NCBI GenBank assembly: GCA_903927965.1
Contig: CAIYPA010000329.1
Span: 1-64,000, forward strand
Reading direction: 5' to 3'
From: an uncultured Bacteroidia bacterium
Lineage (GTDB): Bacteria > Bacteroidota > Bacteroidia > Bacteroidales > Prolixibacteraceae
Length of the DNA stretch: 64,000 nucleotides
The notes below the pieces were generated by a model. It did not search any database, had not been told where the DNA came from, and was given only the letters and a program-made list of their open reading frames with translations. Position 1 is the first letter of the stretch. The number at the start of each line of letters is the position of its first letter. Positions 3,350-31,618 of this stretch are shown here, piece by piece. A program made the position numbers and the translations under genes.

Positions 3350-3736
3350 ATGAGGCACAAGATTCTGATTATAGATGATGAAAAAAGTATCCGTATGTTG
3401 CTTGAGAATTTCCTATCCAAAAACTACGATGTTGTAAGCAAGAGTGACGGTAGAGATGCGCTTGAATGGCTTGAAGGGAACCTTCCCGATTTAATCATAT
3501 GCGATGTGCAAATGCCAATTATGAAAGGATATGAATTTATTGAAAAAGTACGTCAGCGTGGATATACAAAACACACGCCGATCGTCATGTTATCTGGCGT
3601 TGAAAGTAGTAATGAAAGGGTTAAGTGTTACAGGCTCGGTGCACAGGACTTTTTAGCAAAACCATTCAATCCTGAGGAGTTAAGTGAGATTATACTTAAA
3701 AATTTGTTTCCGGTTCACTATGCTTTAAAATGGTAA
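3350..3736 (+). CDS. CheY-like single-domain response regulator
   Basis: A 128-residue stand-alone receiver domain. The acidic pair is in IIDDEKS near the N-terminus, the phospho-acceptor is Asp52 in IICDVQMP, the switch Ser is in VMLSGVE and the conserved Lys is in LAKPFNPEE. All catalytic residues are therefore present and it should be phosphorylated. There is no output domain. It ends 1 bp before the sugar transferase gene, so the two are almost certainly co-transcribed. The transferase begins with a second, degenerate receiver. Together with the HPt protein at 31274 and the two hybrid kinases, this is the likely terminal receiver of a phosphorelay inside the exopolysaccharide locus; that role is inference. 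Confidence 0.9.
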   Translation: MRHKILIIDDEKSIRMLLENFLSKNYDVVSKSDGRDALEWLEGNLPDLIICDVQMPIMKGYEFIEKVRQRGYTKHTPIVMLSGVESSNERVKCYRLGAQDFLAKPFNPEELSEIILKNLFPVHYALKW

Positions 3737-3737
3737 T

Positions 3738-4949
3738 ATGGAAAAATTATTAAAAGTCCTTTATATCGGACGTTCCACACAAAATATTGAAGGACTGCGG
3801 ACACATTCTGGTGTTTCGGTCATTCAACTGTCGAATATGCAGGAGGCAGTTAATTATCTGGAAAAGAATGACAATCCAGATACAGTGATCTCAGAGAATT
3901 ACCTGTCGGGGGGAAGCGGATTCCTTATGCACGAATGGATCAGGGCAAGGCCTGAATTCAATAAAGTTGCATTTATCCTTGTCTCGTTTGAATTCAAAGA
4001 TGAATTGTTCATCACGGCCTTTGAAAGTCGCATTGATGACTACTATGTACTTCCCCTTCCGCCGGCTATAAGCATGGTAGGCAGAATCGAGTTTTTAATC
4101 GATTTCAGGAACAAAAATTCTTTAAAATCGTTTGAAAGTTATATAAAGCCTGATGATAAATTTAAAATGCCACCAATAAAACGGGCATTTGATTTGTTTG
4201 TTGCCATTTCGGCATTGATCGTACTTTCACCTCTTTTGTTGCTCGTTGTGATTGCGATAAGGCTTGAATCGAAAGGGAAAGTTTACTACATTTCGAAAAG
4301 GTATGGCCGTGTACCTTTTAATTTTTACAAATTGCGTTCCATGCGTGTTGGGGCCGATTTGGAATTGGAAAAACTTGCCAAGGAAAAAAATAAATACAAC
4401 ACCACCTTATCCCGAAAAACAGATATTGATTATTCTTTGCCATGCCCAAAATGTGCAGCTTTAACCAATGGAGAGACTTGCTCACCGATCCAATATATTG
4501 AAAACCACGCAATATGTGATTATTCGTACAACAAACAGAAAAAAGAGATTGCAGAAGCAAATTCAGTCTATAAAAAAATTTTAGATGATCCCCGAATCAC
4601 CAAAGTTGGAAAATTTATCCGCAATACCAGCATCGATGAACTTCCGCAGTTGATCAATGTAATTAAAGGCGACATGTCTATTGTAGGAAACCGGCCGCTA
4701 CCTATGGTAGATGAGGCATCTTTACTAACAAAGGACACGATGGCAAAACGGTTTAATGCACCGGCGGGAATAACCGGATTGTGGCAGGTCGAGTTACGTT
4801 CGAGAAAAGGGAAAATGTCGGAGGAGGAGAGGAATAAGCTTGACAACGAATACTCGGACCACTTTGAAGGCAATAATTACTCGTTCTGGTACGACATGAA
4901 ATTGATACTTAGGACGATTCCTGCATTGTTTCAAAAGGATACAGTTTAA
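3738..4949 (+). CDS. Pseudo-receiver fused to priming sugar-phosphate transferase
   Basis: A 403-residue fusion. Residues 1-130 look like a receiver domain, but the acidic pocket is gone (YIGRS where IIDD is expected), the phospho-acceptor is Glu53 (VISENYLSG) and the conserved Lys is missing (YYVLPLPP). From about residue 145 it is a bacterial sugar transferase (WcaJ/PglC-like): a basic stretch and hydrophobic hairpin (IKRAFDLFVAISALIVLSP), YRV-like KRYGR, KLRSMR, then TSIDELPQLINVIKGDMS and GNRPLP. It transfers a sugar phosphate to undecaprenyl phosphate at the cytoplasmic membrane, the first step of polysaccharide assembly. An insert between KLRSMR and TSIDELPQ holds four cysteines (236, 239, 248, 260), a possible metal site. 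The fusion suggests allosteric control by the adjacent CheY-like protein. Confidence 0.88.
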   Translation: MEKLLKVLYIGRSTQNIEGLRTHSGVSVIQLSNMQEAVNYLEKNDNPDTVISENYLSGGSGFLMHEWIRARPEFNKVAFILVSFEFKDELFITAFESRIDDYYVLPLPPAISMVGRIEFLIDFRNKNSLKSFESYIKPDDKFKMPPIKRAFDLFVAISALIVLSPLLLLVVIAIRLESKGKVYYISKRYGRVPFNFYKLRSMRVGADLELEKLAKEKNKYNTTLSRKTDIDYSLPCPKCAALTNGETCSPIQYIENHAICDYSYNKQKKEIAEANSVYKKILDDPRITKVGKFIRNTSIDELPQLINVIKGDMSIVGNRPLPMVDEASLLTKDTMAKRFNAPAGITGLWQVELRSRKGKMSEEERNKLDNEYSDHFEGNNYSFWYDMKLILRTIPALFQKDTV

Positions 4950-5044
4950 TAATCAATTTTAATTATTTGCATTTGTAGTTTCGTTTCTGCTGCCGTTTTT
5001 GGTTACTCAGCAGGTGATTTTGAATTTAATTTTAATAGACACTC

Positions 5045-5818
5045 GTGAAACGCAGTTTTCATATACAATTTTTAATTGTTATCATTGGATTATTGCATTT
5101 ATCAGGTTTTGGACAAACTCCAAAAAAGTTTAATCTATTGACTGATGACCTTTCAATGATGCTTCCACCGCTCGAAACTTTGATCGATTCGGCATTGAAA
5201 AAAAATCCTTTCGTGAAATTCAGGGAACGTCAGATCAGTGTCAACAAAAACAAACTAAAGGACCAGCGCTCATTGTGGATGAAGAATTTCGGTGTCCAAA
5301 CAGATGTCCGATACGGGACGTTTGACAATTTCTCGACCAATACGGCTGAAGGACAGAATCCTGCGTTACTTGCTACAAGGAGTGTCCAATTGAATTATGG
5401 TGCCGGTGCATATATGAAGTTTCCGATTTTCGATATTGTGAACCGAAAAAATCAGATCAATATGGCCAAATCGGAGGTCGGACAGGCTGAGGATATGGCC
5501 AAAGAGCAGCGGAACGAATTGCGGCAACAAGTTATCAAACAGTATAATGACCTGATCTTAAAACAGAAACTGGTGAAGATCAGGTCGAAATACCTTGAAA
5601 CTTCAAGGATCAATATGGAAATGATCGAAAAGGAATTTCAAAACGGTGTGATTACATTAAGTGAATATTCAAGAATATCAGAGATATACACTACAGGTGA
5701 ATCGAATTTTGAAATTGTCAAAACTGATTTTATTACGGCTTTTATGCTCCTTGAAGAGAGTATCGGATTTAAATTGAACCTAAACATCGCAATAAAACCA
5801 GCCAATGAAAATAATTGA
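5045..5818 (+). CDS. Half-length TolC/OEP-family protein
   Basis: A 257-residue exported protein with a GTG start and a signal peptide (HIQFLIVIIGLLHLSGFGQ). The mature part matches one repeat of the outer-membrane efflux (OEP/TolC) fold: an LIDSALKKNPFVKF helix, a long coiled-coil region, beta-strand segments around DVRYGTFDN and GAGAYMKFPI, and a second helical pair ending in TLSEYSRI. Typical TolC proteins are 400-500 residues with two such repeats; this has one. It overlaps the Wzz-like gene by 14 bp, so expression is coupled and the two products probably work together. No Wza-type export channel is in the window, so this protein may take that role, or support one encoded elsewhere. Confidence 0.75.
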   Translation: MKRSFHIQFLIVIIGLLHLSGFGQTPKKFNLLTDDLSMMLPPLETLIDSALKKNPFVKFRERQISVNKNKLKDQRSLWMKNFGVQTDVRYGTFDNFSTNTAEGQNPALLATRSVQLNYGAGAYMKFPIFDIVNRKNQINMAKSEVGQAEDMAKEQRNELRQQVIKQYNDLILKQKLVKIRSKYLETSRINMEMIEKEFQNGVITLSEYSRISEIYTTGESNFEIVKTDFITAFMLLEESIGFKLNLNIAIKPANENN

Positions 5819-8543
5819 CCTCATTAGGTTGTTGCGCAAGCATATTGTTTTGTTGCTGGTTACTCCAATTCTTCTGGCTGGATTAGTGGTTTACCTCACA
5901 AGAAAACCCGATTTTAAGTATGCCTCCGAAACAACGCTTTATACAGGACTTGCAACTGGTTCAAGTGTTGAGATGGATAAATCTTTTAACTATTTCGCAA
6001 CCAATACGGCTTTTGACAACCTGATTAATGTCATTAAATCGAGAGAAACCCAACAAGAGCTGGTAATCAGGTTATTAGCCCAGCATTTAATGCTACCGAA
6101 TTACGATGTCCGATACATTTCAAGCAGCTCGTATGATAACCTAAAACAAATCACTCCAGCTTACATTAATTCATTGGTTGTAAAATCAGCAGATCATACC
6201 CAGGGTTCTGTGAACAATGCCCTAGCAGTAACAAAAAAAGACAGCCTAAAAGACGAAAATAGTCAAAATGCAGAAAAACAGATACATATTGTTAATATTA
6301 ATGAAACTCTCTTTTCAATCAGCCAAAAATACCATGTGTCCGTTGATCAAATAAAAATGATGAATGGTCTGAAAAATAACAATGTCAGAGTAGGTCAATC
6401 GCTTATTGTCGGAAAGCTCTTAGACGATTTTTCAAAATCCTCAAAAATTGCTGATACCATTTTAGTTCCGAAACTTAGCAGCGATACCTCCGCAACATTC
6501 TCTTTTTCAGATCTGAACAACTCCGGTCTTAGTTCCAACACACTACCTCCGTCGATCAACGCAGCTGATTATGAGCAAACTGTCAAAAACCTTACCGATT
6601 ACATGGCGAGCAGTGATACCAATTTTGTGTATCGGCTTTTAAACTTTGAAGATCCGCATTATTCGATTCAGGCTATTTCTTCGATCAATGTGCAACGAAT
6701 AGCCAACAGCGACATGGTCAAATTAAAATATGAGACCGATGATCCAGGAATTTGTCAGCAGACATTGGCTCTTCTAACCGATGTTTGTATTAAAAATTAC
6801 AAAGGGATTAAGGAAAACAGATCGGATGCAGTGGTCAAATATTTTGAGTTTCAGTTAAAACAGGCTGCCGGCCGGCTTAAAGTTGCAGAAGATAAACTAT
6901 TAAAATTCAATAAAGACAACAATATTATCAACTATTACGAACAGAGTAAGGCCGTAGCTGTTGTAAAAGAAGACCTTGATGTTGAGTTTAACAATAAGAG
7001 GATCAAACTTGCAGGAATACAGGCAGGAATTAAAGGTCTGGAGGAGAAACTTGGGATTCAGCAGCAAATTCAACTAAAAAGTTCGAATATCCTCGAAAAA
7101 AGGAATGAACTTGGTGAAGTAAATTACAAAATACTCTCTGCAGAAATTTTAGGGGCACAGGATGTTAAAAATGGACAGCAATTGGTTGATTTGAAAAATA
7201 GGGCAGAGAAACTGAAAAATGAAATCAAATCTGCCGTAGGAGAATTTTATTCCTTTAGCAACTCAAAAGAAGGACTTCCAATCAGTACGATATTGAATGA
7301 TTGGATCAGCAATGTTATTGAAGCAGAGAACACCAAAGCAGGAATAGATGTACTGGGGGAAAGGATCAAAGAATTTCAGAAACAATATGCAGTTTATGCA
7401 CCGGCAGGAGCCAATATTAAAAGGATCGAACGGGAAATATCCGTTTCGGAACAGGAGTTTCTTGAAATTTTACATGGTCTGAATCTCGCGAAACTGAAAA
7501 TGCAAGATAATGAATTGTCCTCCAATATCAAAGCTGTTGACCCACCCTATTTCCCAGTGTCTCCGATACCCACAAAGCGCAAGATACTTATTGTTGTAGC
7601 TGGTTTGCTTGGTTTTATGATTGTTTTAACAACTGTTTTTGTTTTGGAATATTTTGATGATACTTTAAGAAATCAGACAAAGGCTTCCCGAATCCTGAAA
7701 TTAGAATTTTTATCTGCCTTTCCCAAAATCATGTTAAAGGTACAGAACACAAATTTCTTGTTCATAACCAACCGTTTACTTGAAATTGCGATCCAAAATA
7801 TCGAACGCTATTTGAGTGCAGACAGATCACAAAAAACAACTAAAACGTTATTGATTTTCAGCACCTTAAGAAATGAGGGAAAAACGGTTATTATCGGAAA
7901 CTTAGCGCAGAAGTTAAAGAAGCAAGGAAAGAAAGTATTTGTGCTCAATTTCACTTACGAATCGTTGCGCAAAACAGAAGTGACCCAAATAGGCTACCCG
8001 GATATTCGCAACCAAAATTTTACTACAAGGTTCACCAATAAACGGAGGAAATTTTCAGTTATCAATTGGCTTTTAGGTTATCCCGACACACGGATCAATT
8101 ATGATAGCCCATTTCTGCAACACTACGAAAACGTTCTTGACGAACACGAGTTTATGTATTACAACGTTGATGAGAGCTTTTATTCTGTGAATAATTACAA
8201 GGAAATTCTCGCACTGAATAACTATTATCTGTCATTTACTCCCGATTTTGTTCTTATTGAGCTGCCGCCGATCCTGTTTTATCCATATCCAGTAGGATTA
8301 CTTTCTGATACTGATATGTCAATACTGATTTGCCGTTCAAACAGGATATGGTCAGAAGCCGATCAGGGGGCGCTAGATGTATTGACAGAGCTTACAAAAC
8401 AAAAAACCCACTTTTTACTGAATGGCGTAGAACTACAGGTAATTGAGTCGATATTAGGAGACCTGCCTAAAAAGAGAAGCTGGCTGCGCCGGAAATTGAA
8501 AAGCGTTTTTAGGCTTCAGTTCTTTTCAAGAAATCAAATTTAA
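5805..8543 (+). CDS. Wzz/BY-kinase-like chain-length protein with a LysM domain
   Basis: A 912-residue inner-membrane protein of the polysaccharide co-polymerase type. TM1 is near residues 15-32 and TM2 near 592-614, preceded by the proline-rich PPYFPVSPIP typical of Wzz. The periplasmic region between them holds long coiled coils (about 330-570) and, unusually, a LysM domain at about 160-204 (NINETLFSISQKY...VRVGQSLIVG), which in other proteins binds peptidoglycan or chitin-like glycans. The C-terminal part is an ATPase fold with a Walker-A-like STLRNEGKTV near 686-695. The second Walker motif is altered (VLIELPPIL, Glu for the usual Asp), and the C-terminal Tyr cluster of BY-kinases is absent. 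It is therefore probably not an active tyrosine kinase. It overlaps the TolC-like gene by 14 bp. Confidence 0.85.
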   Translation: MKIIDLIRLLRKHIVLLLVTPILLAGLVVYLTRKPDFKYASETTLYTGLATGSSVEMDKSFNYFATNTAFDNLINVIKSRETQQELVIRLLAQHLMLPNYDVRYISSSSYDNLKQITPAYINSLVVKSADHTQGSVNNALAVTKKDSLKDENSQNAEKQIHIVNINETLFSISQKYHVSVDQIKMMNGLKNNNVRVGQSLIVGKLLDDFSKSSKIADTILVPKLSSDTSATFSFSDLNNSGLSSNTLPPSINAADYEQTVKNLTDYMASSDTNFVYRLLNFEDPHYSIQAISSINVQRIANSDMVKLKYETDDPGICQQTLALLTDVCIKNYKGIKENRSDAVVKYFEFQLKQAAGRLKVAEDKLLKFNKDNNIINYYEQSKAVAVVKEDLDVEFNNKRIKLAGIQAGIKGLEEKLGIQQQIQLKSSNILEKRNELGEVNYKILSAEILGAQDVKNGQQLVDLKNRAEKLKNEIKSAVGEFYSFSNSKEGLPISTILNDWISNVIEAENTKAGIDVLGERIKEFQKQYAVYAPAGANIKRIEREISVSEQEFLEILHGLNLAKLKMQDNELSSNIKAVDPPYFPVSPIPTKRKILIVVAGLLGFMIVLTTVFVLEYFDDTLRNQTKASRILKLEFLSAFPKIMLKVQNTNFLFITNRLLEIAIQNIERYLSADRSQKTTKTLLIFSTLRNEGKTVIIGNLAQKLKKQGKKVFVLNFTYESLRKTEVTQIGYPDIRNQNFTTRFTNKRRKFSVINWLLGYPDTRINYDSPFLQHYENVLDEHEFMYYNVDESFYSVNNYKEILALNNYYLSFTPDFVLIELPPILFYPYPVGLLSDTDMSILICRSNRIWSEADQGALDVLTELTKQKTHFLLNGVELQVIESILGDLPKKRSWLRRKLKSVFRLQFFSRNQI

Positions 8544-8588: not shown

Positions 8589-11500
8589 ATGAATATCAGA
8601 AGTAAATTGTTCCTTCTATTTTTCGCGTCTGTCTCGATCTTGTTTGCCGTTTTGTTCATTGTCAGAAATGCACAAGAACATCAAAACAGTATAATTTTAC
8701 AATCGGCAACTGACCAACAAGTTATACTTATTAATTCGGCCATCAATGTTCATTCGGTCCAACTTGATCAGATCGTTAAAGACTATTCAAACTGGGACGA
8801 TATCCTTCCCAATCTAAAGGTCATTAACAATAAATGGGCAAAAGACAATATTGAAAGCATCGTGAATTCGTTCGATTTGTATTCTGTTAATGTCTATAAT
8901 GCTGATTACAAGTTAATTTATAATTTCGGTAATAAGTTTACCAATTATTTTTCTGATCCGGAAATAGGTAAAAAAATATCAAGAACCATTGCTGAAGGAA
9001 AAAAAATCCACTTCTTTGAGGTTTTGCCCAAAGGGCTTTTTGAGATCTCTGGATCCTCAATTCATCCAACACTTGACACTGCACATGTGACAACTCCTTC
9101 CGGATATTTTTTCATTTGCAGGTTATGGGACAAGGATTTTCTTAATGAACTTTCACAAAATACCGCAAGCCGTGTATATTTTGAAGCTATTGCCCATCGG
9201 TACGATCAATTCATCACAAGTGATTCGATCGTTGTCTCCAAAAAACTCTCTAACTATGCCGGTCTGAAAATCGGAGATATCGTTGTTAAAAAACAAAATT
9301 CTGTACTTCTAAACTATCACAAGAACACTGATTATGTATTTTATCTTATCAGCACTTTGCTGTTAATCTTTATTTCGTTCTTTTTTATTATACTCTACTA
9401 TTGGATTAGGCGGCCACTAAAGATCATCTCCTATAGTTTGCAGCAAGGGGATACATCCCAACTTGAAGTCCTAAAAAAAAATAACAATGAATTCAGTCAG
9501 ATTGCCGGATTGATCTCCATATTCTATCGTCAGAAGCAGGAACTGGAACGTGAAAATACTGAAATAAACAAGATTCAGCGTGAATTGATCCGGCAGAGGA
9601 GCATACTTCATGGGATGGCATTGGCTTCAAATCACCTCCTGACCAACGAGGATTTTGATTCTGCCGTATCCTATGCACTTGAATCAATCGGACTAGCTTC
9701 TGGTATAGACCAAATTTTCATCTATAAAAATATTTCCGAGAACTCTTCAAGGGAGAAAAAAGTCAAACGTATCTATGAATATATCAATCCTTCAATAAAA
9801 AAGCAGGTTGACCCTAAAGAGGCCGAGGTGATATCGTTTACCTATAAAGCCAATAGTTGGTATAAACCACTTTTACAAGGAAAAACAATTAAAGGATTCA
9901 CTAAAGAATTTCAGCCAAATGTTAGGCAACTATTTGAAAAACAATTAATTAATTCGATAATGATCCTACCGGTCATTGATCCGAAAAACCATATGTTCTG
10001 GGGTTTTGTAGGTTTTGCTGACTCCACAGACGACCACTTGTGGACCATTGCAGAAGAAACTGTCCTAAGTATGCTGGCAAACAATATAGCAGGGGCTTTA
10101 AGGCGACAAAAATCTCAGGAAGAATTAAGGGAAGCAATGGTGATGGCCAAATCGGCTGATCGTGCAAAATCTGAGTTTCTTGCGTCAATGTCGCATGAAA
10201 TCAGGACACCAATGAATGGAGTGATCGGGATGACAAGTTTGTTATTGCTTTCTGAACTTACGCCCACTCAGCGCGAATATGTGAACATCATCGAGAATTC
10301 GGGTGAAGGACTGATGAATATCATCAATGAGATTTTGGACTTCTCAAAAATCGAATCCGGAAGGATGGAATTGGAAGAGACTTCCTTTGATTTGCGGCTT
10401 TGTGTCGAGGATGTTCTTGACCTAATGGCACCCAAATCATTGGAAAAGCACCTTGATATTATTTACTTTATTGATCCCCAAATACATCAGCATATTTTTG
10501 GTGATGGCTTCAGGTTGCGTCAAATCATTGTAAACCTTGTGAGCAACGCGATTAAATTCACGAATAAAGGGGATATTTTAATTACCATTACGCTGGCTTC
10601 ACAGGACGGATTAGATGTTGCCCTTGAATTCTCGGTTCAAGATACGGGTATTGGAATCCCATCTGAAAAAATTGATTCGCTATTTTCGCCATTTACCCAG
10701 GTGGACGCCTCTACAACCAGGAAATATGGGGGAACTGGCCTTGGGCTTGCAATTACTGCTAGTTTGGTAAAATTGATGCATGGCAGAATTTGGGTCATCA
10801 GCGAATACGGCAAAGGATCTGATTTTCGTTTCACAATCAAAACGAGGTATTCCACTCCTCAGGAAGATATTAATCCATTGTATAAAACACTTCAGAGTTT
10901 ATCCGGAAAATCGGTTTTAATTGTTGATGACAATGCAACCAACCGTAAGGTTTTAACTTCACAGTGTGAATATTGGGGCTTAAAAACATTGGCACTGGAA
11001 ACCGGAGTTGAAGCTTTGAAATTGCTTGACCAACAACATTTCGATATAGCTATTCTTGATATGCAAATGCCTGATATGGATGGTATTATGTTAGCAGGAA
11101 GGATCAGGGTCAAATTTACAAAAGAACAGTTACCGCTTATTATGCTCACTTCGGTTGGTTTTAGCAGAGAAACGGATGAATTGGGTAAACTATTTTCATT
11201 TTTTGTGAATAAGCCAATCAAACATTCACAACTGGCAGAGATTTTATTAAAAGTGATCGCCCCATTTAAGAAAACCGAAATGGTGGATACAACACCGAAC
11301 GAAGATTTTGCCCAGATTGCAGTAAAATTTCCCTTTCGGATTTTAGTTGCAGAAGACAATCTGATCAATCAGAAATTAATACGTAATATTTTTGAATTAT
11401 TGGGATATAAAATCGATATCGCAGCCAATGGTATCGAAGTATTGGAAGCCCTCAAACGGAAGATATACGATGTCATTTTTATGGATATTCAAATGCCTGA

Positions 11501-11720
11501 AATGAATGGTTATGAAACTACAAGGATTATCATTTCCCATAGGAACATGACCAGGCCAATCATTATTGCAATGACAGCCAATGCAATGCAGGGCGACCGT
11601 GAAAAATGCTTTGAAGTTGGAATGGACGATTATGTCACAAAACCGATGAGGGTTGATAACCTGATTAAAGTTTTGCACAATTGGGGTGAAAAAAAATTCC
11701 CAAACAGCCTTTATATTTGA
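8589..11720 (+). CDS. CHASE4 hybrid histidine kinase with two receivers
   Basis: A 1043-residue membrane sensor kinase. A TM segment at 5-25 is followed by an extracytoplasmic CHASE4 domain (DYSNWDD, WAKDNI), a second TM near 251-275, then a short linker and coiled coil. A GAF domain follows at about 345-500. The HisKA domain has phospho-acceptor His536 in MSHEIRTPMNG and is followed by an HATPase with the N box (LVSNAIKFT) and G boxes (DTGIGIP, GGTGLGLAI). Two receivers close the protein, with Asp824 (AILDMQMPD) and Asp966 (IFMDIQMPE). There is no HPt domain in the chain, so phosphate would have to pass to a separate HPt protein; one is encoded at 31274. It lies inside the exopolysaccharide operon. 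The ligand of the CHASE4 domain is unknown. Confidence 0.92.
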   Translation: MNIRSKLFLLFFASVSILFAVLFIVRNAQEHQNSIILQSATDQQVILINSAINVHSVQLDQIVKDYSNWDDILPNLKVINNKWAKDNIESIVNSFDLYSVNVYNADYKLIYNFGNKFTNYFSDPEIGKKISRTIAEGKKIHFFEVLPKGLFEISGSSIHPTLDTAHVTTPSGYFFICRLWDKDFLNELSQNTASRVYFEAIAHRYDQFITSDSIVVSKKLSNYAGLKIGDIVVKKQNSVLLNYHKNTDYVFYLISTLLLIFISFFFIILYYWIRRPLKIISYSLQQGDTSQLEVLKKNNNEFSQIAGLISIFYRQKQELERENTEINKIQRELIRQRSILHGMALASNHLLTNEDFDSAVSYALESIGLASGIDQIFIYKNISENSSREKKVKRIYEYINPSIKKQVDPKEAEVISFTYKANSWYKPLLQGKTIKGFTKEFQPNVRQLFEKQLINSIMILPVIDPKNHMFWGFVGFADSTDDHLWTIAEETVLSMLANNIAGALRRQKSQEELREAMVMAKSADRAKSEFLASMSHEIRTPMNGVIGMTSLLLLSELTPTQREYVNIIENSGEGLMNIINEILDFSKIESGRMELEETSFDLRLCVEDVLDLMAPKSLEKHLDIIYFIDPQIHQHIFGDGFRLRQIIVNLVSNAIKFTNKGDILITITLASQDGLDVALEFSVQDTGIGIPSEKIDSLFSPFTQVDASTTRKYGGTGLGLAITASLVKLMHGRIWVISEYGKGSDFRFTIKTRYSTPQEDINPLYKTLQSLSGKSVLIVDDNATNRKVLTSQCEYWGLKTLALETGVEALKLLDQQHFDIAILDMQMPDMDGIMLAGRIRVKFTKEQLPLIMLTSVGFSRETDELGKLFSFFVNKPIKHSQLAEILLKVIAPFKKTEMVDTTPNEDFAQIAVKFPFRILVAEDNLINQKLIRNIFELLGYKIDIAANGIEVLEALKRKIYDVIFMDIQMPEMNGYETTRIIISHRNMTRPIIIAMTANAMQGDREKCFEVGMDDYVTKPMRVDNLIKVLHNWGEKKFPNSLYI

Positions 11721-11777: not shown

Positions 11778-14700
11778 ATGGAAATACTTAGTATTCAATC
11801 AATTAAGCTATTGAATAGGTTTATCTTATCCTTTTCAAATATTTCTTCATTTGATGGGTTGACCCAATCTATTGAAAATATCCTCGAAGAATTATTTAAT
11901 ATAAAATATACAGAATTATATCTTATTGATACAGAAGGGGTTTGTTTAAACCTAGTTTACTCAAAAGGATTCACAAAAGAAGAAAACCGGTTTGCTTCCT
12001 TAAATGCAATGGAAGGTTATCCTGGTGAAGTTTATCGATCAAAAGAATTAATCCATATTATTAATTTACAGATCGTTGAAGACAATAAGAAAGAAAAAGG
12101 GGATATTTCAAACCAATTTAGGACACAGGTATATTTACCAATCAAGGATCAGGATCGTGTAAGTGGAGTTTTAGTGATTAAGGACACAGAACCAGATAGG
12201 TTTAACGAAGGTGATGTTGAAATTCTTTCCACTATTTGCAACCTAATCGGTACTTTCCTCAGCAAACTAGAGAATATCAATCTCTTAAACCAAGCTATAA
12301 ACTCAAAAAAAACAATTCTGAACGCCAGTTATTTAGGAATGTCTGACGATATTTTGCAGCAAAAAAATCAGTATGATGAATTACAGCTTGCTAATTTACG
12401 GTTCAGGTCGCTTATTTCCAGTATTCAGGCCGGTATAATGGTTGAGGATGAACAAAGAAAAGTCGTGCTCGTCAATCAGCATTTTTGCAATTTGTTTTCA
12501 ATTCCTGTGCAACCAGACCTTTTGATTGGAATGAATTGTGAGGAAGCTGCAGAGGCATCGAAAACCATGTTCAAGGATCCGGTTTCCTTTATTAACGACA
12601 TAAACCATACATTGGCCAATAGGCAAATCGTGACCGGCTTAGAATTGCAAATGAGCAATGGGACTTCCCTTGAACGAGATTTTATACCTATTGAGGATTT
12701 AGGGAAAAAGAATTTTGGGATTCTTTGGATTTACAGGGATATCACAAAAAGGAAAAGAAATGAAAAAGATCTCTTGCTCCAAAGCAGGCTACTAAGTGGA
12801 ACGGCACAAGCCATGAATTATTTATTGACAGTGCAGGATTATGACGAAGCCATCCGGAAAGCACTGGAGGCTATAGGTGTTGCTGCAGGAGTTGACAGAG
12901 TTTATATTTTCGAGAATATAGAGGATAAAATCAATGACCAAACTTTCTTTAGTCAGAAATATGAATGGTCAGCACCCGGTATCATTCCTCAGATCGACAG
13001 TCCAGAATTGCAGAAAATTTCATTTGAAGAAAATTTTCCAAAGTGGTACAATAACCTTTTATCAGGGCAAACGGTTTTTGGGTTAAGCGAGGCTTTCCCG
13101 GAAACTGAACGTAAACTTATTGGAAAAGATGTCAAATCTGCAGTAGCCGCACCCATCTTTGTCAATGACAAGCTTTGGGGAATTGTAGGTTTTGACGATT
13201 GTTCTATTGGTACCGAATGGTCAACCAACGAAATTTCAACACTTAAAGCCCTTGCAGGAAGCATAGGTGGCAGTATTTCACGCAGGATTATTGAAGATGA
13301 GTTGATCAGTTCCAGGCAAATTGCGGAATATGCCTTCAAAACGAAATCAGAATTTCTGGCTACCATGTCCCATGAGATCAGGACACCTATGCACGGTGTA
13401 ATAGGGATGACCAGCCTCTTGATGCAAACACAATTGACTTATGACCAGCGTGACTATGCTGAAACAATCAGGGTCAGTGGTGAATTATTGCTTAACCTGA
13501 TCAACGATATTCTTGATTTCTCCAAAATAGAATCGGGTAAAATGGTCCTTGAGGAACAAAATTTTGATTTGAGATTGGCTATCGAAGAAGTCATTGACCT
13601 GCTTTCAACAACCGCAAATGAAAAAAGACTTGGTCTTTATTACGATGTCGATCCGGCTATTCCATTAACAATCAGGGGAGACTTATCCCGGTTAAGACAA
13701 ATCCTTGTGAACCTCACAGGAAATGCCCTCAAATTTACAACAGTTGGAGAAGTCATCATAGATGTTAAGGAAATAACGAAACATAACGATGTATCGGTCC
13801 TTGAATTTTCGGTGAAGGACACGGGAATGGGCATCCCACCTGAAAAAGTGAACCTTCTTTTTAAACCTTTTAGCCAGATTGATGCATCAGCAACACGAAA
13901 ACATGGTGGAACCGGCCTGGGACTTGCCATTTGTTACAATTTGGTAAAAATGATGGATGGCAATATCAGGGTTAAGAGCGAAGTCAACCGGGGTTCAGAG
14001 TTTATTTTCACCTTAAAAACAATCATTCAGTCTGTTAATGAACCCAACAAATCCTTGTTGACAGAACTTTCAATCCTGAAAGGCAAAAATATCCTTTTGG
14101 CAGATGAAAACCCTACGAGTATAGAAATCAAAGGTAAACTACTCAGGGGATTAAATATCAACCTATTGTCTGCCAATTCTGCAAGAATGTGCCTGAATAT
14201 TCTCAATAACAATAAAAGCATAGATCTGATAATAATTGATAATGACATCTCCGATATGGAGACCAACATTTTAATATCTTCAATAAAAAGAATAAAAGAG
14301 TATGTGGATTGTCCAATACTTATGATCAATTATGGCAATGTAAAAGAAAATCGGTCAGATAAGCTGATTGATTCCATTATCAGGATAAGCAAACCTTTAA
14401 AGCATTCGCAATTCATCTCTTATATTGTTAAAATCTTTTCGGAGAATAGCACAAGTAAAACACATCCTATCATACAACCACCTCAGATTCAAAAGCTCAA
14501 TGGTCTTTATCCGTTAAACATACTTGTAGCAGAAGACAATGCGATAAATCAAAAGCTGATTACGCGTTTGTTTGAAATGTTGGGATACGATATTCAACTT
14601 GCAGCAAATGGTTTCGAAGCGATCAAAACAGTGAACAACATGAATATCGATATTATTTTTATGGATATTCAAATGCCTGAAATGGATGGAATAGAAGCGA

Positions 14701-14891
14701 CAAAGAGAATCATTGAGAAATGGGGAGCAAAAAAGCCCCTGATTGTAGCAATGACAGCCAACGCGCTTCAAAATGATAAAGAAAAGTGTCTTGAAGCAGG
14801 AATGGATGATTACATGAGCAAACCACTAACCATCGATCAGGTGAGCTCGAGAATAGGGAAATGGGCTTCATTAAGCAATCGTAACAAATAG
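11778..14891 (+). CDS. Cytoplasmic GAF/PAS hybrid histidine kinase
   Basis: A 1037-residue soluble hybrid kinase with no evident TM helix. Order: GAF (about 20-165), PAS (about 205-330), a second GAF (about 355-495), HisKA with His532 (MSHEIRTPMHG), HATPase (DTGMGIP, GGTGLGLAI), receiver 1 (about 768-885) and receiver 2 with Asp963 (IFMDIQMPEMDG). Receiver 1 diverges from the usual pattern (LLADENPTS, IIIDNDISDME, ISKPLKHSQ). It keeps acidic residues, a candidate acceptor Asp821 and the Lys, so phosphorylation remains possible. From its second GAF onward it is plainly paralogous to the kinase encoded just upstream (both have a MNYLL/SNHLLT-type helix and an AAGVD/ASGID core). No HPt domain is present. 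It probably senses an intracellular signal. Confidence 0.9.
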   Translation: MEILSIQSIKLLNRFILSFSNISSFDGLTQSIENILEELFNIKYTELYLIDTEGVCLNLVYSKGFTKEENRFASLNAMEGYPGEVYRSKELIHIINLQIVEDNKKEKGDISNQFRTQVYLPIKDQDRVSGVLVIKDTEPDRFNEGDVEILSTICNLIGTFLSKLENINLLNQAINSKKTILNASYLGMSDDILQQKNQYDELQLANLRFRSLISSIQAGIMVEDEQRKVVLVNQHFCNLFSIPVQPDLLIGMNCEEAAEASKTMFKDPVSFINDINHTLANRQIVTGLELQMSNGTSLERDFIPIEDLGKKNFGILWIYRDITKRKRNEKDLLLQSRLLSGTAQAMNYLLTVQDYDEAIRKALEAIGVAAGVDRVYIFENIEDKINDQTFFSQKYEWSAPGIIPQIDSPELQKISFEENFPKWYNNLLSGQTVFGLSEAFPETERKLIGKDVKSAVAAPIFVNDKLWGIVGFDDCSIGTEWSTNEISTLKALAGSIGGSISRRIIEDELISSRQIAEYAFKTKSEFLATMSHEIRTPMHGVIGMTSLLMQTQLTYDQRDYAETIRVSGELLLNLINDILDFSKIESGKMVLEEQNFDLRLAIEEVIDLLSTTANEKRLGLYYDVDPAIPLTIRGDLSRLRQILVNLTGNALKFTTVGEVIIDVKEITKHNDVSVLEFSVKDTGMGIPPEKVNLLFKPFSQIDASATRKHGGTGLGLAICYNLVKMMDGNIRVKSEVNRGSEFIFTLKTIIQSVNEPNKSLLTELSILKGKNILLADENPTSIEIKGKLLRGLNINLLSANSARMCLNILNNNKSIDLIIIDNDISDMETNILISSIKRIKEYVDCPILMINYGNVKENRSDKLIDSIIRISKPLKHSQFISYIVKIFSENSTSKTHPIIQPPQIQKLNGLYPLNILVAEDNAINQKLITRLFEMLGYDIQLAANGFEAIKTVNNMNIDIIFMDIQMPEMDGIEATKRIIEKWGAKKPLIVAMTANALQNDKEKCLEAGMDDYMSKPLTIDQVSSRIGKWASLSNRNK

Positions 14892-14925: not shown

Positions 14926-16296
14926 TTGAAAAAAACATTTATAAAGATTGTAAAGGAGGATAATTTCCTTTCATTAATTGGCAATCTTACCATCGCTTTT
15001 TTTGGATTTGCCGGCTTTGCCCTTTTAACCCGAAGTTTTTCTCTTGATATTTTTGGTCAATGGGTTTTATTTATATCATCCGGTGCGTTTATCGAGATGT
15101 TCAGATTTGGAATAACGAATACTGCCATTATCCGCTATTTGGCCGGAGTGGAACTGAATGACCGCCTAAAATACATTGGATCAAACGGATTAATAGGATT
15201 AGTAGCTACAGTTTTTGTTTCATTGGCACTCATTGCATGTCATTTTGCCTTTACTGAATCTATTAAACATGCCGGATACGAATTATTCTTCAGCTGGTAT
15301 CCGCTGCTTGCACTGATCAACCTACCCTACAATACTGCATTGGTGATTATGCAGGCAGATCAAAAATTCGGGAAGATATTATTTGTCAAAACGCTCAACA
15401 GCGGAGGATTCTTTTTGGTGCTTATCGTCAATTATTTCTTCCTGCAAATGACCCTCCTTCAGTTGGTGTTTGCAATGTTAGTTATAAATGCCATTACATC
15501 GGCAGTTTGCATCATTGCTGGATGGGATGGCTTAAGGCACATCCGAAAAGCGACCAGACAAACAAATAAAGTGTTGCTCGATTTTGGAAAATACACCACA
15601 TTCACCCTTATTGGAACCAATTTACTCCGAAGTGCCGATACTTTGATCATAAGCTTAAGCCCTTTGGGAACTGCAGCGGTTGCATTGTACAGCATTCCGA
15701 TGAAACTTACAGAATTGCAACAAATTCCATTGCGAAGCTTCGTTGCAACAGCTTTTCCGAAGATGTCGAAGGCAAGTATCCAAGGAAAATTAAATGAAGT
15801 TAAGGAGATTTTTTACACCTATTCAGGGGCAATGAGTTATCTTTTTGTATTTATTAGCCTTTTCACTTTCCTTTTTGCCGATTTTTTCGTTTTGGTACTG
15901 GGCGGCAGGCAATATCTTGGAGTCGATCCTATCACAGGTTTCAATACGGCAAACATTGTCCGTATCTTCTCATTGTACGGCCTGTTGCTACCAATTGACC
16001 GGATGACAGGGATTGGTCTCGACAGCATTAACAGACCGAATGTCAATGCATTAAAAGTCCTGTATATGGTTATTTTTAATGTTGTGGGCGATTTGGTTGC
16101 GATCTTTATATTCAAGTCGCTTGCGCTTGTTGCAGTCGGGTCCATAATTTTTACAATTATTGGTATTTGGGTTGGATTCATTTATTTGGACAGGGAATTG
16201 TCGATAAATTACCTGTCGATTTTTACAAAAGGAATTGATTTTTACAAATCGATGTATCAAAAATTAATGAATCAAATGGTTCGGAAAGCAGGATAA
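14926..16296 (+). CDS. Wzx-type polysaccharide flippase
   Basis: A 456-residue integral membrane protein with roughly 12-14 hydrophobic segments, of the MOP/oligosaccharide flippase superfamily. It would move undecaprenyl-linked repeat units from the cytoplasmic to the periplasmic face. The TTG at 14926 is taken as the start because it gives a usual basic N-terminus (MKKTFIKIVKEDN) and there is no ATG before the first membrane segment. The PMKLTELQQIPLRSF stretch between helices is typical of this family. It is followed 27 bp later by the polymerase gene, the normal partner. Confidence 0.87.
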   Translation: MKKTFIKIVKEDNFLSLIGNLTIAFFGFAGFALLTRSFSLDIFGQWVLFISSGAFIEMFRFGITNTAIIRYLAGVELNDRLKYIGSNGLIGLVATVFVSLALIACHFAFTESIKHAGYELFFSWYPLLALINLPYNTALVIMQADQKFGKILFVKTLNSGGFFLVLIVNYFFLQMTLLQLVFAMLVINAITSAVCIIAGWDGLRHIRKATRQTNKVLLDFGKYTTFTLIGTNLLRSADTLIISLSPLGTAAVALYSIPMKLTELQQIPLRSFVATAFPKMSKASIQGKLNEVKEIFYTYSGAMSYLFVFISLFTFLFADFFVLVLGGRQYLGVDPITGFNTANIVRIFSLYGLLLPIDRMTGIGLDSINRPNVNALKVLYMVIFNVVGDLVAIFIFKSLALVAVGSIIFTIIGIWVGFIYLDRELSINYLSIFTKGIDFYKSMYQKLMNQMVRKAG

Positions 16297-16322
16297 AACG
16301 TTTTTTGAATTGTATTTTTCCA

Positions 16323-17813
16323 ATGCAGTATATTACAAATCCATTTGATCAATTTACCGGTTCCGACCGGTTGAGATCACCCTATTTTATGCTCATACTT
16401 GTTTTTCTGGTTGTCTTATCAGCCTGGATCACCAGTAAATTGGGTATGGCTATTGGTATGGGATTAATTGTTCTGCCATTCATTTTTACCTATTTGTACC
16501 TGTTGTTCATGTACCCTATACTAGGACTTTACACAGCAATAATACTGGGTTTTATCCTTCTTGGCCTGGGACGTTATGTTAAAGGAGTGCAGGTAGGGCT
16601 TGCGATGGACGGGATTCTTTATATGACCTTTATTGCATTAATTTTCAACAAGTTCAGAGAACGGGTCGATTGGACTCCTGCAAAGAAGGATATCACTTTA
16701 TTGTCGGCAATTTGGTTTGCCTATTCCTTATTGGAAGTTGTAAATCCCGAGGCAAGAAGTTTTGAAGCGTGGTTTTCGGGACGTGGTATTGGTTTGTATA
16801 TGATGCTGATAGTACCGCTAACTTTGATCTTTGTGGATTCCAATCGGAAATTGGATGCGATACTCATTTTATGGGGGATCTTTACTTTATTGGTGACCTT
16901 TAAAGGCATTGGCCAACTTACATTTGGAGTCGATCAATGGGAGAAAGCATGGTTGGATGAAGGCAATTATAAAACGCACATTTTATTCGGGAAACTAAGG
17001 ATATTCTCTTTTTTGAGCGATGCGGGACAATATGGTGCCAATCAGGCCTACTCAGGGGTCGTAGCAACCATTGTTTCAATGGTCCAGAAAGATTGGCGCA
17101 AAAAAATGTTTTTTATTTTTGTCGCATTGATGGGGTTCTATGGGATGATTATTTCCGGTACGCGTGGAGCAATCAGCATCCCATTAGCAGGCTTTAGTTG
17201 CTACTTTGTTCTGAGGAAAAATATTGGGGTAATGGTCACGGGCTTTTTCCTGCTGATTGTGGTTTTTGTTTTCTTTAAATATACCTTGATTGGTCAGGGA
17301 AATCAACAAATCAGAAGAATGAGGACTGCCTTCGATCCAAACGATGCTTCGTTACAGGTTCGCCTTGACAATCAAAAGAAACTGAAAGTTTATCTGGCGA
17401 CACGTCCTTTTGGGGGAGGGATCGGTCATGGTGGGGTAAAAGCCCAGCGTTATCTCCCGAACGCCTATTTATCACAAATAGCCACCGATAGCTGGTATGT
17501 CCTGATTTGGGTGGAGCAAGGCATTATCGGATTGCTACTTCATCTATTTATTCTTTTTTACACGGTTGGAAAAACATCCTTCCAGATCATGTTCCGGATC
17601 CGGGACCCAATACTTAAAATGAAAATGGCTGCCCTTACTGCCGGCATGTTTGGTGTTATGGTAGCCTCATATGGGAATGCAGTATTGGGTCAATTACCCA
17701 CCAGCATTCTGATTTATGTATCCATGGCGATAATGTTAAATTCCGAAAGACTGGATACGCCGATAGATCTAATTGCCTCCGAACAAAAAGAGCTGTCGAG
17801 TTTAGCCGAATAG
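16323..17813 (+). CDS. O-antigen ligase/Wzy-like polymerase
   Basis: A 496-residue membrane protein with about ten or more hydrophobic segments, of the O-antigen ligase/Wzy_C superfamily. It would polymerise the flipped repeat units in the periplasm. Visible signatures are the IISGTRGAI segment before a membrane helix and the late periplasmic loop DSWYVLIWVEQGIIGLLL, in which an acidic/aromatic stretch precedes a Glu-Gly-Gly pattern typical of these enzymes. I prefer the ATG at 16323; an in-frame TTG lies at 16305. It is adjacent to wzx-like and glycosyltransferase genes, so Wzy is more likely than WaaL. Confidence 0.83.
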   Translation: MQYITNPFDQFTGSDRLRSPYFMLILVFLVVLSAWITSKLGMAIGMGLIVLPFIFTYLYLLFMYPILGLYTAIILGFILLGLGRYVKGVQVGLAMDGILYMTFIALIFNKFRERVDWTPAKKDITLLSAIWFAYSLLEVVNPEARSFEAWFSGRGIGLYMMLIVPLTLIFVDSNRKLDAILILWGIFTLLVTFKGIGQLTFGVDQWEKAWLDEGNYKTHILFGKLRIFSFLSDAGQYGANQAYSGVVATIVSMVQKDWRKKMFFIFVALMGFYGMIISGTRGAISIPLAGFSCYFVLRKNIGVMVTGFFLLIVVFVFFKYTLIGQGNQQIRRMRTAFDPNDASLQVRLDNQKKLKVYLATRPFGGGIGHGGVKAQRYLPNAYLSQIATDSWYVLIWVEQGIIGLLLHLFILFYTVGKTSFQIMFRIRDPILKMKMAALTAGMFGVMVASYGNAVLGQLPTSILIYVSMAIMLNSERLDTPIDLIASEQKELSSLAE

Positions 17814-26317: not shown

Positions 26318-26337
26318 TTGCATTAAATTATTAAGTT

Positions 26338-28011: not shown

Positions 28012-28035
28012 CTTATTTTACTAAAGAACATTAAT

Positions 28036-28043: not shown

Positions 28044-28073
28044 CTGATATTTTATAACTAAAACCACAACAAA

Positions 28074-29399
28074 ATGAAAGTCGCAATCGTAGGAAGTGGA
28101 TACGTGGGCCTTGTAACCGGAACATGTTTCGCAGAAGTTGGTATCGAAGTCACTTGTGTTGACATTGACCAAAAGAAAATTGAGAATTTAAAAAATGGCA
28201 TTATTCCGATTTTTGAGCCCGGGCTCGATGAGATGGTACTCAGGAACATGAAAAAAGGGAGATTGCAGTTCACGACTGACATATCGGAAGCTCTTGAAAA
28301 TTGTGAAGTGCTGTTCACAGCTGTAGGTACGCCCCCCGATAAAGATGGAAGTGCCGATCTTCAGTATGTTTTAAGTGTTGCCCGTGATTGTGGCAAAAAC
28401 ATGAAAGATTATTTGCTGATCGTGACCAAAAGCACAGTGCCAGTTGGAACTGCCCAGAAAGTAAGAAAGGCGTTGCAGGAGGAATTGGACAAACGGGGAG
28501 TTGACATTAAGTTTGATGTTGCATCCAATCCTGAATTCCTGAAGGAGGGTGCTGCAATCACCGATTTTCTCAAACCTGACCGTATTGTGGTTGGCCTTGA
28601 TTCGCCCCGGGCTGAAGAATTAATGAAAAGCCTCTATAAACCTTTTACATTAAACGGACATCCCATTATTTTCATGGACATCACTTCAGCTGAGATGACC
28701 AAATATGCTGCCAATGCGATGCTCGCAACAAAAATCAGTTTTATGAACGACATCGCCAATTTGTGCGAGATTGTTGGTGCAGATATCAACAGTGTCCGAA
28801 AAGGGATCGGATCAGATTCAAGGATTGGGAACAAATTTATTTATCCAGGGATCGGTTATGGTGGGTCTTGTTTTCCTAAAGATGTTAAGGCATTGATTCA
28901 TACTGCTGAAGATTTCAAATATGAGCTAAGGGTACTCAAAGCTGTTGAAGAAGTAAATCAGGATCAGAAATCAGTCTTGTTCAATAAAGTGTTGAATTAT
29001 TTTAATGGCGATATCGCTGACAAGACCATTGCCATGTGGGGATTATCCTTTAAACCACAAACCGACGATATGCGCGAAGCACCCTCATTGGTAATTGCAA
29101 AAAAACTACTTGAAGCCGGCGCAAAAGTTAAAGCGTACGATCCGGTTGCCATGAACGAAGCCAAACACACATTAAAGGATACTATTACCTATTCGGAGGA
29201 CCAATATGAAGCATTAATCGATGCAGATTGCTTGTTGCTGATCACCGAATGGCCAGAATTCAAATTCCCAAATTTCAACATTGTAAGGAAATTAATGAAC
29301 AAACCTGTAATTTTCGATGGCCGCAATATTTATGAATTGGACGAAATGAAACGGTTGGGCTTTACCTATTTCTGTATCGGGATAAATACATCAAATTAA
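28074..29399 (+). CDS. ugd: UDP-glucose 6-dehydrogenase
   Basis: A 441-residue cytoplasmic enzyme that oxidises UDP-glucose twice to UDP-glucuronate using NAD. The N-terminal Rossmann motif is [12 protein letters not shown], the substrate/hinge region includes [11 protein letters not shown], and catalytic Cys266 lies in [14 protein letters not shown]. The C-terminal UDP-binding domain includes [17 protein letters not shown]. Length and motifs are those of the full-size family. The next gene encodes UDP-glucuronate decarboxylase, so the two steps lead from UDP-glucose to UDP-xylose, the likely pentose donor for this polysaccharide. Confidence 0.95.
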
Positions 29400-29412
29400 T
29401 AATTGAAATAAA

Positions 29413-30351
29413 ATGATCAAGAAAAAGGTTTTAGTTACAGGTGGGGCTGGTTTTGTGGGTTCACATCTTTGCGACCGGCTGTTGAAAGAGGGCAATGAAG
29501 TTGTTTGTCTAGATAACTATTTCACTGGTCAGAAGCAGAATATTGTTCATTTACTGGATAACCCTTTCTTTGAATTGATCCGGCATGATGTAACAATGCC
29601 TTTTTTCATTGAGGTGGACGAGATTTATAATCTTGCCTGTCCGGCATCCCCCATCCATTATCAATATAACGCCATCAAGACAATGAAAACCTCTGTGATG
29701 GGGGCGATCAATATGCTGGGTTTGGCTAAACGGATAAAAGCCAAGATCCTTCAGGCTTCAACCAGTGAAGTTTATGGTGATCCTCAGGTGCACCCACAAA
29801 CAGAAAGCTACTGGGGACATGTGAATCCCATTGGTGAACGTTCGTGCTACGACGAGGGAAAACGTTCAGCTGAAACCCTTTTCGTCAACTATTACAAACA
29901 AAATAATGTCAGGATCAAAATTATCAGGATCTTTAATACTTTTGGTCCGCGCATGCACCCCCACGATGGAAGGGTCGTATCGAATTTTATTGTCCAGGCA
30001 TTAAAAAATGAGGACATCACCATTTATGGTGATGGTCAGCAAACCCGTAGTTTCCAATATGTTGATGATCTAATCGAAGGCATGGTCAGAATGATGGCCT
30101 CGCGTGAAGATTTCACGGGACCCGTAAATATCGGAAATCCCAATGAATTCACAATTCTCCAACTGGCAGAACATGTCATTGACCTGACCAATTCAAAATC
30201 AAAGATTGTCAGAATGCCCTTGCCTCCCGATGATCCCACTCAAAGGCAACCCAATATTAGCCTCGCAAAAAAGGAACTGGATTGGGAACCCAAGATACAG
30301 TTGAAGGAAGGGTTGCTGAAAACGATCGAGTACTTTTCTTCCATCATTTAG
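29413..30351 (+). CDS. uxs: UDP-glucuronate decarboxylase (UDP-xylose synthase)
   Basis: A 312-residue extended short-chain dehydrogenase. The NAD-binding motif is [12 protein letters not shown], the catalytic Tyr-x-x-x-Lys is in YDEGKRSAE, the partner Thr/Ser is in [10 protein letters not shown], and NLACPASP with [10 protein letters not shown] is diagnostic of the UXS subgroup rather than UDP-glucose epimerase. It decarboxylates UDP-glucuronate to UDP-xylose. It starts 13 bp after ugd, which supplies its substrate. Confidence 0.92.
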
Positions 30352-30365
30352 AGGATATTTTTTTA

Positions 30366-31253
30366 ATGCACTTGGTTATTTCGCAAAATGCACACGTGAG
30401 GATCCTTGTTACAGGTTCCAATGGCCAGTTGGGAAACGAAATTCAGCAATTGGCGAATGATTACAAATTTTATATTTTTGATTATACTGATATTGAGGAA
30501 CTTGACATATCCAATAGCCAACATGTAGATGCTTATTTTGATGCAACCAAGCCACAAGTAATCATCAATTGTGCAGCTTATACAGCAGTTGACAAAGCTG
30601 AAACAGATGAAACTGTTGCTTACCTTGTAAACGCAAAAGCTACAGAAAATCTTGCACGATCTGCATCTCGTACTGGAGCAATGATCGTTCATGTTTCTAC
30701 TGATTATGTTTTTGATGGAAGGGCTTATATTCCATACAATGAATCAGATCTGACAAATCCCCAATCTGCCTACGGGCGGAGCAAACTCGCAGGTGAAGAG
30801 GCTGTCATGCAAAATGCGACAAATGGCATCATCATCCGGACTTCCTGGTTGTATTCAGCATTTGGCAATAATTTCATAAAGACGATGATCAGGTACGGCA
30901 AGGAACGTCAGGAATTAAAGGTGGTATTTGATCAGATTGGGACTCCTACTTATGCGAAAGACCTCGCAAAAGTAATCCTCGATATTATCCCGAAAGCTAT
31001 AACCAATTCAGGAGTAAATCTTTATCATTATTCAAACGAGGGAGTGGCAAGTTGGTACGATTTTGCTAAGTTTATTATCAACTTTTGCAGTATTGATTGT
31101 GATGTTAAACCCATCCTGACCAAAGATTACCCATTACCTGCACCCAGGCCATTCTATAGTGTACTCAATAAATCAAAGATCAAAGAGACTTTTAATATTG
31201 AAATTCCCTATTGGACCTCAAGTGTAATTGCATGTATTAAACGACTTCAATAA
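30366..31253 (+). CDS. rfbD: dTDP-4-dehydrorhamnose reductase-like (RfbD)
   Basis: A 295-residue NAD(P)-dependent reductase of the RmlD family. The N-terminal motif ILVTGSNGQLGNEI, the CAAYTAVDKAE segment, VSTDYVFDG and YGRSKLAGEE (Tyr-x-x-x-Lys) are all typical, and the domain is full length. It would reduce dTDP-4-keto-rhamnose to dTDP-rhamnose. The partner genes rmlA, rmlB and rmlC are not in the window and must lie elsewhere if that is the substrate. Three starts are possible: a far upstream one inside uxs (rejected), ATG at 30366, and GTG at 30396, which would give the family-typical MRILVTGS beginning. Confidence 0.88.
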   Translation: MHLVISQNAHVRILVTGSNGQLGNEIQQLANDYKFYIFDYTDIEELDISNSQHVDAYFDATKPQVIINCAAYTAVDKAETDETVAYLVNAKATENLARSASRTGAMIVHVSTDYVFDGRAYIPYNESDLTNPQSAYGRSKLAGEEAVMQNATNGIIIRTSWLYSAFGNNFIKTMIRYGKERQELKVVFDQIGTPTYAKDLAKVILDIIPKAITNSGVNLYHYSNEGVASWYDFAKFIINFCSIDCDVKPILTKDYPLPAPRPFYSVLNKSKIKETFNIEIPYWTSSVIACIKRLQ

Positions 31254-31273
31254 CAAATATAAATATAAACAAT

Positions 31274-31618
31274 ATGGCACAAATTGACTGGAAAGAATTC
31301 AATGATTATTTTAAATATTTTGATAAAGAGATCACGATTGAAGTTATAAATATCTACATTAATGAATATGACGAAAGAATACGCACGTTAGAAAAAAATA
31401 TTGAGGAGAAAGACTTTGTAAATCTGGCGTTTAACGCGCATAGCCTCAAAAGTGTGATCTCAAATTATATGGCTCCGTCTGTATATAGTCTTTCTCAATC
31501 TCTCGTGGATTTGGCCAAGAAAGATGATATACAACATATTCCAGAAACTTTTGAAGAACTAAAGAAGGCTTCAAAAGAACTATTATATGAACTGATTGGA
31601 TACCTGCATAAGCGATAA
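31274..31618 (+). CDS. Stand-alone HPt phosphotransfer protein
   Basis: A 114-residue helical protein with the HPt signature FNAHSLKSVISN; the phospho-acceptor would be His56. It has no kinase or receiver domain. HPt proteins shuttle phosphoryl groups between receiver domains in multistep relays. Here it closes the exopolysaccharide locus, whose two hybrid kinases end in receivers and lack their own HPt, and whose first gene encodes a free CheY-like receiver. It is therefore the probable missing link of a locus-encoded relay (inference). It follows rfbD by 20 bp. Confidence 0.85.
   Translation: MAQIDWKEFNDYFKYFDKEITIEVINIYINEYDERIRTLEKNIEEKDFVNLAFNAHSLKSVISNYMAPSVYSLSQSLVDLAKKDDIQHIPETFEELKKASKELLYELIGYLHKR

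Follow-up and report, generated by a model that had tools for sequence, protein, structure and literature searches.

What does the signalling machinery of an exopolysaccharide locus act on when none of its parts carries a DNA-binding domain? The question is raised by positions 3350-31618 of a 64,000-nucleotide stretch (the window) from an uncultured Bacteroidia bacterium of the family Prolixibacteraceae, which comprises positions 1 to 64,000 of the forward strand of contig CAIYPA010000329.1 (contig 329 of the 7.57-Mb assembly GCA_903927965.1). The initial annotation of the locus described a complete relay of kinase, receiver, histidine phosphotransfer (HPt) protein and receiver with no DNA-binding output, and read it as post-translational control of polysaccharide initiation. 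We found all four relay domain types (HisKA, receiver, HPt, receiver) at the locus with their catalytic residues, and a free receiver gene directly before the gene of the priming sugar-phosphate transferase, both in the window and in most of the related loci compared. These results confirm the observation and partly support its interpretation: on balance, a multistep phosphorelay probably acts through protein contact to control the first committed step in making exopolysaccharide. The arrangement suggests that a signal governs slime production by acting on its opening chemical reaction and not via a gene switch.

Relay parts and the transferase pseudo-receiver

The proteins on which the argument turns are the following:

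3350-3736, + strand: free single-domain receiver (CheY-like), the proposed terminal phospho-acceptor and effector (Pfam Response_reg, 105.8 bits)
3738-4949, + strand: priming sugar-phosphate transferase, a small monotopic phosphoglycosyl transferase with an N-terminal pseudo-receiver at about residues 1-126 (Bac_transf, 173.2 bits)
8589-11720, + strand: hybrid histidine kinase 1, with CHASE4, HisKA, HATPase_c, receiver and receiver, and no HPt (Pfam; motif positions)
11778-14891, + strand: hybrid histidine kinase 2, with GAF, PAS, GAF, HisKA, HATPase_c, receiver (partly degenerate) and receiver, and no HPt (Pfam; motif positions)
31274-31618, + strand: free HPt with His56 in an AHSLKS motif, the proposed shuttle from the kinase receivers to the free receiver (Pfam Hpt, 32.3 bits; cut-off 24.6)

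The free receiver, described earlier as intact, keeps D9, D10, D52, S82 and K104. Among aligned sequences, the full catalytic set survives in 99 of 105 free receivers and in a single one of 109 transferase N-termini, 21 of which are gapped at the acid pair. One base pair separates the receiver gene from that of the transferase. Their meeting with an HPt gene at this locus looks like more than chance, as the transferase family was found in a single gene of the genome and HPt is rare in it (5 Pfam matches vs 94 to HisKA). The transferase combines a Bac_transf domain with an Asp-Glu dyad, which we take to be the mark of a monotopic phosphoglycosyl transferase; of 75 aligned rows, 74 have D300 and 72 have E301. 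The initial annotation also assigned it a pseudo-receiver, and several lines of evidence agree. The N-terminus gives a sub-threshold Response_reg match (24.2 bits vs a cut-off of 30.2). AlphaFold2 models residues 11-120 as alternating strands and helices with block means of 90-96 in predicted local distance difference test (pLDDT) score, and receivers lead the Foldseek matches of this domain in the Protein Data Bank (PDB). Much of the catalytic domain is poorly modelled (predicted template modelling score 0.45), and we used the N-terminal domain alone. The window protein has Gly11 at the acid-pair site and Glu53 at the phospho-acceptor site, a column in which Glu is the commonest residue (56 of 109 rows) and Asp the occupant of 28. 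The N-terminal domain is thus a pseudo-receiver, with the receiver fold but not the full set of phosphorylation residues. It looks to be under constraint rather than decaying, because residues of its own are conserved (G11 and R116 are invariant in 48 rows). One long helix (146-178) precedes the catalytic part. Within that part, residues 236-260 form an insertion with four cysteines and a zinc-knuckle-like look; at each of the four positions, 57 of 75 aligned homologues have Cys, and distant members have no insertion.

The two kinases had been described as hybrids that end in receivers and lack HPt domains. Pfam agrees, with the refinement that each carries two Response_reg stretches, and matches Hpt in neither. 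Kinase 1 also has a GAF match below the cut-off, and the first receiver of kinase 2 looks partly degenerate on reading its letters. Judged by domain content, the pair may take two inputs, one extracytoplasmic (CHASE4) and one cytoplasmic (GAF/PAS). The HPt assignment likewise held. H56 and K59 are invariant among 18 aligned sequences, the window's included, the AlphaFold2 model has five helices (mean pLDDT 94.5), and the best PDB match is HptB (7c1i; template modelling score 0.90, 18% identity). Pfam scans of the 20 proteins encoded between 3350 and 31618 found no DNA-binding family, in line with the earlier description; one of the 20 (14926-16296) has no Pfam match of any kind.

Gene neighbourhoods in relatives

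A search for the same gene order in other Bacteroidetes genomes, put forward in the initial annotation as a check, was run on two sets of loci and a set of controls. The named loci represent the best 80 of 562 relatives, in stretches extending at most 10 kb per side; L139-L144, the most remote, were left uncounted, no transferase of L110 or L127 passed the threshold, and 72 remained. The phylum sample covers 395 genomes, of which 45 (the window's own genome included) hold the transferase family at E<=1e-30; from these, 47 loci were fetched, the window itself excluded. The controls are 20 loci around other transferases in 18 genomes that share the window's family or order, outside the phylum-sample genomes, and two of these stretches end at about 11 kb owing to contig ends. 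The gene caller starts at the first ATG, so that proteins may be shortened (e.g., L248).

A free receiver gene lies directly upstream of the family transferase gene in 66 of the 72 named loci and in 38 of the 47 phylum-sample loci, vs none of the 20 controls (Fisher p 1.7e-10, kinship uncorrected). When any free receiver within 4 kb of the transferase is counted, the phylum-sample figure is 45/47; a kinase match is found in 17/47 stretches. The fetched stretches of the 20 control transferase loci hold no receiver, kinase or HPt match, and for this reason chance proximity of unrelated signalling genes can be ruled out for the receiver. Several variants of the pair were seen. Receiver-transferase pairs are duplicated in tandem in L079, L081 and L086; L079 and L081 also have a pair of HPt genes each, and the product of one of these, L079_1322, lacks the His. 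The upstream free receiver of L099, L102, L105 and L108 is a fused receiver-receiver protein. Close relatives encode another free receiver, about 134-140 aa long, either past kinase 1 (L184, 9537-9953, checked with Pfam; L188) or where no kinase was found (L190).

HPt is encoded in the stretches of 23/72 named loci, and that of close kin lies further off than these stretches reach. It is present in 13 of the 47 phylum-sample loci, spanning 10 genera, vs 0/20 controls (p 0.007, kinship uncorrected), as counted with profiles trained partly on the same loci. Pfam matches Hpt at E<=0.01 in 11 of the 13 (24.4 bits vs the cut-off of 24.6 in L206), L217 and L228 being without such a match. A rough expectation of 0.11 HPt in 47 random stretches came from estimated totals and was not relied on. 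Across 101 genomes (the window's own and 100 relatives), a hand count of the transferase at E<1e-50 and an HPt homologue at E<1e-10 gave both in 13, transferase only in 4, HPt only in 3 and neither in 81 (Fisher 1.4e-10, kinship ignored).

The linkage takes several forms. As in the window, a free HPt gene lies beside epimerase and UDP-sugar dehydrogenase genes in 11/11 kin genomes fetched (10 of the same genus and 1 of the same family: G001, G002, G006, G008-G013, G015 and G024), and a kinase-1 homologue was found in the kin stretches of G001, G002, G009, G010 and G013. HPt and transferase share a contig in three of the eight same-genus genomes holding both (G001, G009, G010) and in the same-family genome G024. 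A variant of this form, in which the block of epimerase, UDP-sugar dehydrogenase and HPt genes is divergent from the transferase gene, occurs in the four named loci L075, L076, L079 and L081. Tighter still are the triplets of HPt, receiver and transferase genes, with gaps of 7-28 bp, in 7/72 named loci (L080, L082, L084, L085, L092, L098, L100). Five of the seven triplet HPt proteins were scanned with Pfam (not those of L085 and L092), all matching at E<=0.001 and two (L080, L082) scoring over the cut-off. Finally, the HPt domain lies C-terminal to a hybrid-kinase receiver, encoded 0.3-4.9 kb from the transferase, in 12 of the 13 HPt-bearing phylum-sample loci. Pfam matches this fused HPt at E<=0.01 in L204, L206, L207, L210-L215, L236 and L254; in L228 our own profile does so and Pfam does not.

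The rest of the locus has the content of a polysaccharide cluster. All genes between 3350 and 31618 are on the + strand with intergenic gaps of at most 96 bp, the HPt gene starts 20 bp past an RmlD-like gene, and Pfam identifies glycosyltransferases and sugar-nucleotide enzymes. The neighbours of the relay genes include:

5045-5818, + strand: outer membrane efflux (OEP) family protein, a conserved neighbour of the transferase (Pfam OEP, 74.6 bits; recurrent order)
5805-8543, + strand: putative Wzc-like co-polymerase with LysM (43.3 bits; GNVR 21.4 bits, below cut-off; recurrent order)
14926-16296, + strand: putative Wzx-like flippase (no Pfam match; relatives repeatedly carry homologues downstream of the transferase)
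16305-17813, + strand: Wzy_C polymerase or ligase (Pfam; homologues recurrent as for the flippase)
28074-31253, + strand: sugar-nucleotide genes for a UDP-sugar dehydrogenase, an NAD-dependent epimerase and an RmlD-like reductase (Pfam)

Past the HPt gene are tandem genes for large DUF4114/DUF4842 proteins (31682-33778 and 34087-36123), and relatives repeatedly have similar ones close to HPt or transferase genes. Further along the window, DNA-binding regulators of the NtrC type (54487-55860) and LuxR type (58929-59564) each adjoin a kinase gene; the partner of the LuxR-type regulator is a HisKA_3 kinase. Scanning with the Bacteroidota-type promoter consensus, we found the motif TAAATTTG at 3269, before the receiver gene, but it is uninformative, the window holding 68 such motifs vs a mean of 71.7 in shuffled sequence. 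A sigma-70 scan of 2400-5900 gave 15 sites vs a mean of 11.9 in shuffles.

The proposed relay and its alternatives

How could these parts work together? Kinase 1, sensing an outside signal through CHASE4, and kinase 2, sensing an inside signal through GAF/PAS, would autophosphorylate and pass the phosphate to their own receivers, as their domains suggest. The phosphate would then move to His56 of the free HPt, a step for which the recurrent linkage argues, and from there to Asp52 of the receiver at 3350-3736, to which the triplets and the nearby fused-HPt kinases point. Once phosphorylated, the receiver would bind the transferase, most likely via the pseudo-receiver, and thereby activate the enzyme, so that sugar phosphate is transferred onto the lipid carrier. 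That the effect would be activating and not inhibitory is our guess from a parallel reported in Myxococcus. The scheme starts from the observed presence of the parts, their intact residues, the predicted folds of the HPt and pseudo-receiver, and the recurrent neighbourhood; from these we infer the phosphotransfers, the binding, the direction of the effect and the signals sensed. The chain from kinase to own receiver, HPt, free receiver and transferase is the simplest we can draw that uses every part. Comparison of gene neighbourhoods lends support to a wiring that the initial annotation had only proposed.

A number of observations weigh against this scheme, some of them against the idea of a closed circuit in particular. 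The genome encodes at least one further free HPt besides that at 31274-31618, and some of its 94 HisKA matches could also feed the HPt. In G024, the 33 kb fetched around the receiver, transferase and HPt genes (one contig; L190, L191) hold no kinase match. Nine of the 47 phylum-sample loci are without a receiver gene directly upstream, their transferases all being called at 273 aa or less (that of L248 shortened by the caller), and in L214, L215 and L254, where the HPt is fused, the closest free receiver is encoded 2.8-4.0 kb away from the transferase. Genome by genome, enrichment across the phylum is weak: HPt at E<=1e-6, a threshold that misses some genomes (e.g., G331), was hand-counted in 24/45 genomes with the transferase vs 130/350 without (p 0.05), and we therefore do not rely on it. 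Further, an earlier Myxococcus paper saw the receiver EpsW as a relay intermediate and not an end point (PMC4671073), a proposal since revised (PMC12802240).

Other unfavourable points bear directly on alternative explanations. The receiver might control the transferase but take its phosphate straight from one or more kinases, with the HPt serving other, unlinked regulators and being present by chance of cluster growth. Many receiver-transferase loci indeed have no HPt in the stretch (49/72 named and 34/47 phylum-sample loci), and in Myxococcus the kinase DifE phosphorylates EpsW directly (PMC4671073). Three order-level relatives (G073, G080, G100) carry the HPt homologue on a separate contig, and no cluster gene was detected in its surroundings. 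Yet both window kinases are hybrids that end in receivers, an architecture for which an HPt is usually required, and the triplets and fused-HPt kinases near the transferase recur in several lineages. Direct phosphorylation, we conclude, is unlikely.

Less likely again is a relay whose end point is a DNA-binding regulator encoded elsewhere in the genome and whose output is transcriptional, with the free receiver acting as a phosphate sink or branch. HPt genes do lie directly before genes for response regulators of about 235 aa in 11/72 named loci. The regulator is of the LytTR type in L089, the only one of the 11 scanned, and in the phylum-sample locus L217. In L120, 6.7 kb upstream of the receiver gene, the HPt gene directly precedes one for a sigma-54 type regulator, and a sink receiver, DifD, has been described for the Dif system (PMC12802240). 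However, the 20 proteins scanned at the locus yielded no DNA-binding family, receiver and transferase genes stay linked across the sample, and a receiver-fold domain is part of the transferase itself. That the pseudo-receiver is just a structural or dimerisation module, with the free receiver acting on another cluster protein such as the Wzc-like one, is highly improbable: although some family transferases (253-284 aa) have no N-terminal domain in the called frame and four of these (L210-L213) keep the receiver directly upstream, the receiver gene precedes the transferase gene and not another cluster gene, and the reported target in Myxococcus is the transferase.

The HPt genes placed before regulators and the many HPt-less stretches argue against a single fixed circuit. 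The relay described as complete and free of DNA-binding output stands for the parts at the window locus. As a closed circuit it is not proven, given the other HisKA and HPt proteins of the genome, the LytTR and sigma-54 type partners in relatives, and G024. Post-translational control of initiation by the relay, the other half of the earlier interpretation, is favoured by the neighbourhood evidence and by the parallel with EpsW and EpsZ (PMC12802240), short of that closure.

Comparison with known systems

The window HPt shares the fold of HptB at low identity. HptB is itself a free protein that shuttles phosphate for hybrid kinases, and its output in Pseudomonas is an unrelated regulator. The pseudo-receiver resembles the aspartate-less receiver domains (PMC4395418), which also have the receiver fold without the phospho-acceptor Asp; it differs in being fused to a transferase and in belonging to a family with most often Glu, and sometimes Asp, at the acceptor site.

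The closest parallel is in Myxococcus xanthus, where EpsW is reported to act after translation and, once phosphorylated, to be close to and likely in contact with the transferase EpsZ, whose activity it raises in Salmonella (PMC12802240, 2025). The same report, citing the survey of O'Toole et al. (2021), notes receiver domains on small monotopic transferases. Like the window protein, EpsW is a single-domain response regulator whose gene shares a Wzx/Wzy polysaccharide locus with that of the priming transferase, and it is proposed to activate the initiating phosphoglycosyl transferase by contact. The differences lie in the partners. EpsZ is a large monotopic transferase with a transmembrane bundle and a DUF, whereas the window transferase is small and its N-terminal domain has a receiver fold; DifE, the kinase of EpsW, belongs to a chemosensory system, whereas the window encodes hybrid kinases and a free HPt; and the phyla differ. 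The word stem 'bacteroid' is absent from the main text of that report (PMC12802240), and in the open-access literature we recognised no account of such control in Bacteroidota among the matches listed.

It seems to us evenly balanced whether, in widespread Bacteroidota polysaccharide clusters, an HPt relay ends in a receiver that pairs with the transferase pseudo-receiver, the heterodimer serving as an on-off switch of glycan initiation. If so, receiver control of polysaccharide initiation would reach beyond Myxococcus to include Bacteroidota and small transferases, with a phosphorelay as input. The triplets of HPt, receiver and transferase are compact sets with which the chain could be rebuilt in vitro, and gating of the use of the shared lipid carrier would become directly testable in Bacteroidota. 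The principle is already known from Myxococcus; what is new here is the phylum, the small transferase with its own pseudo-receiver and the HPt input.

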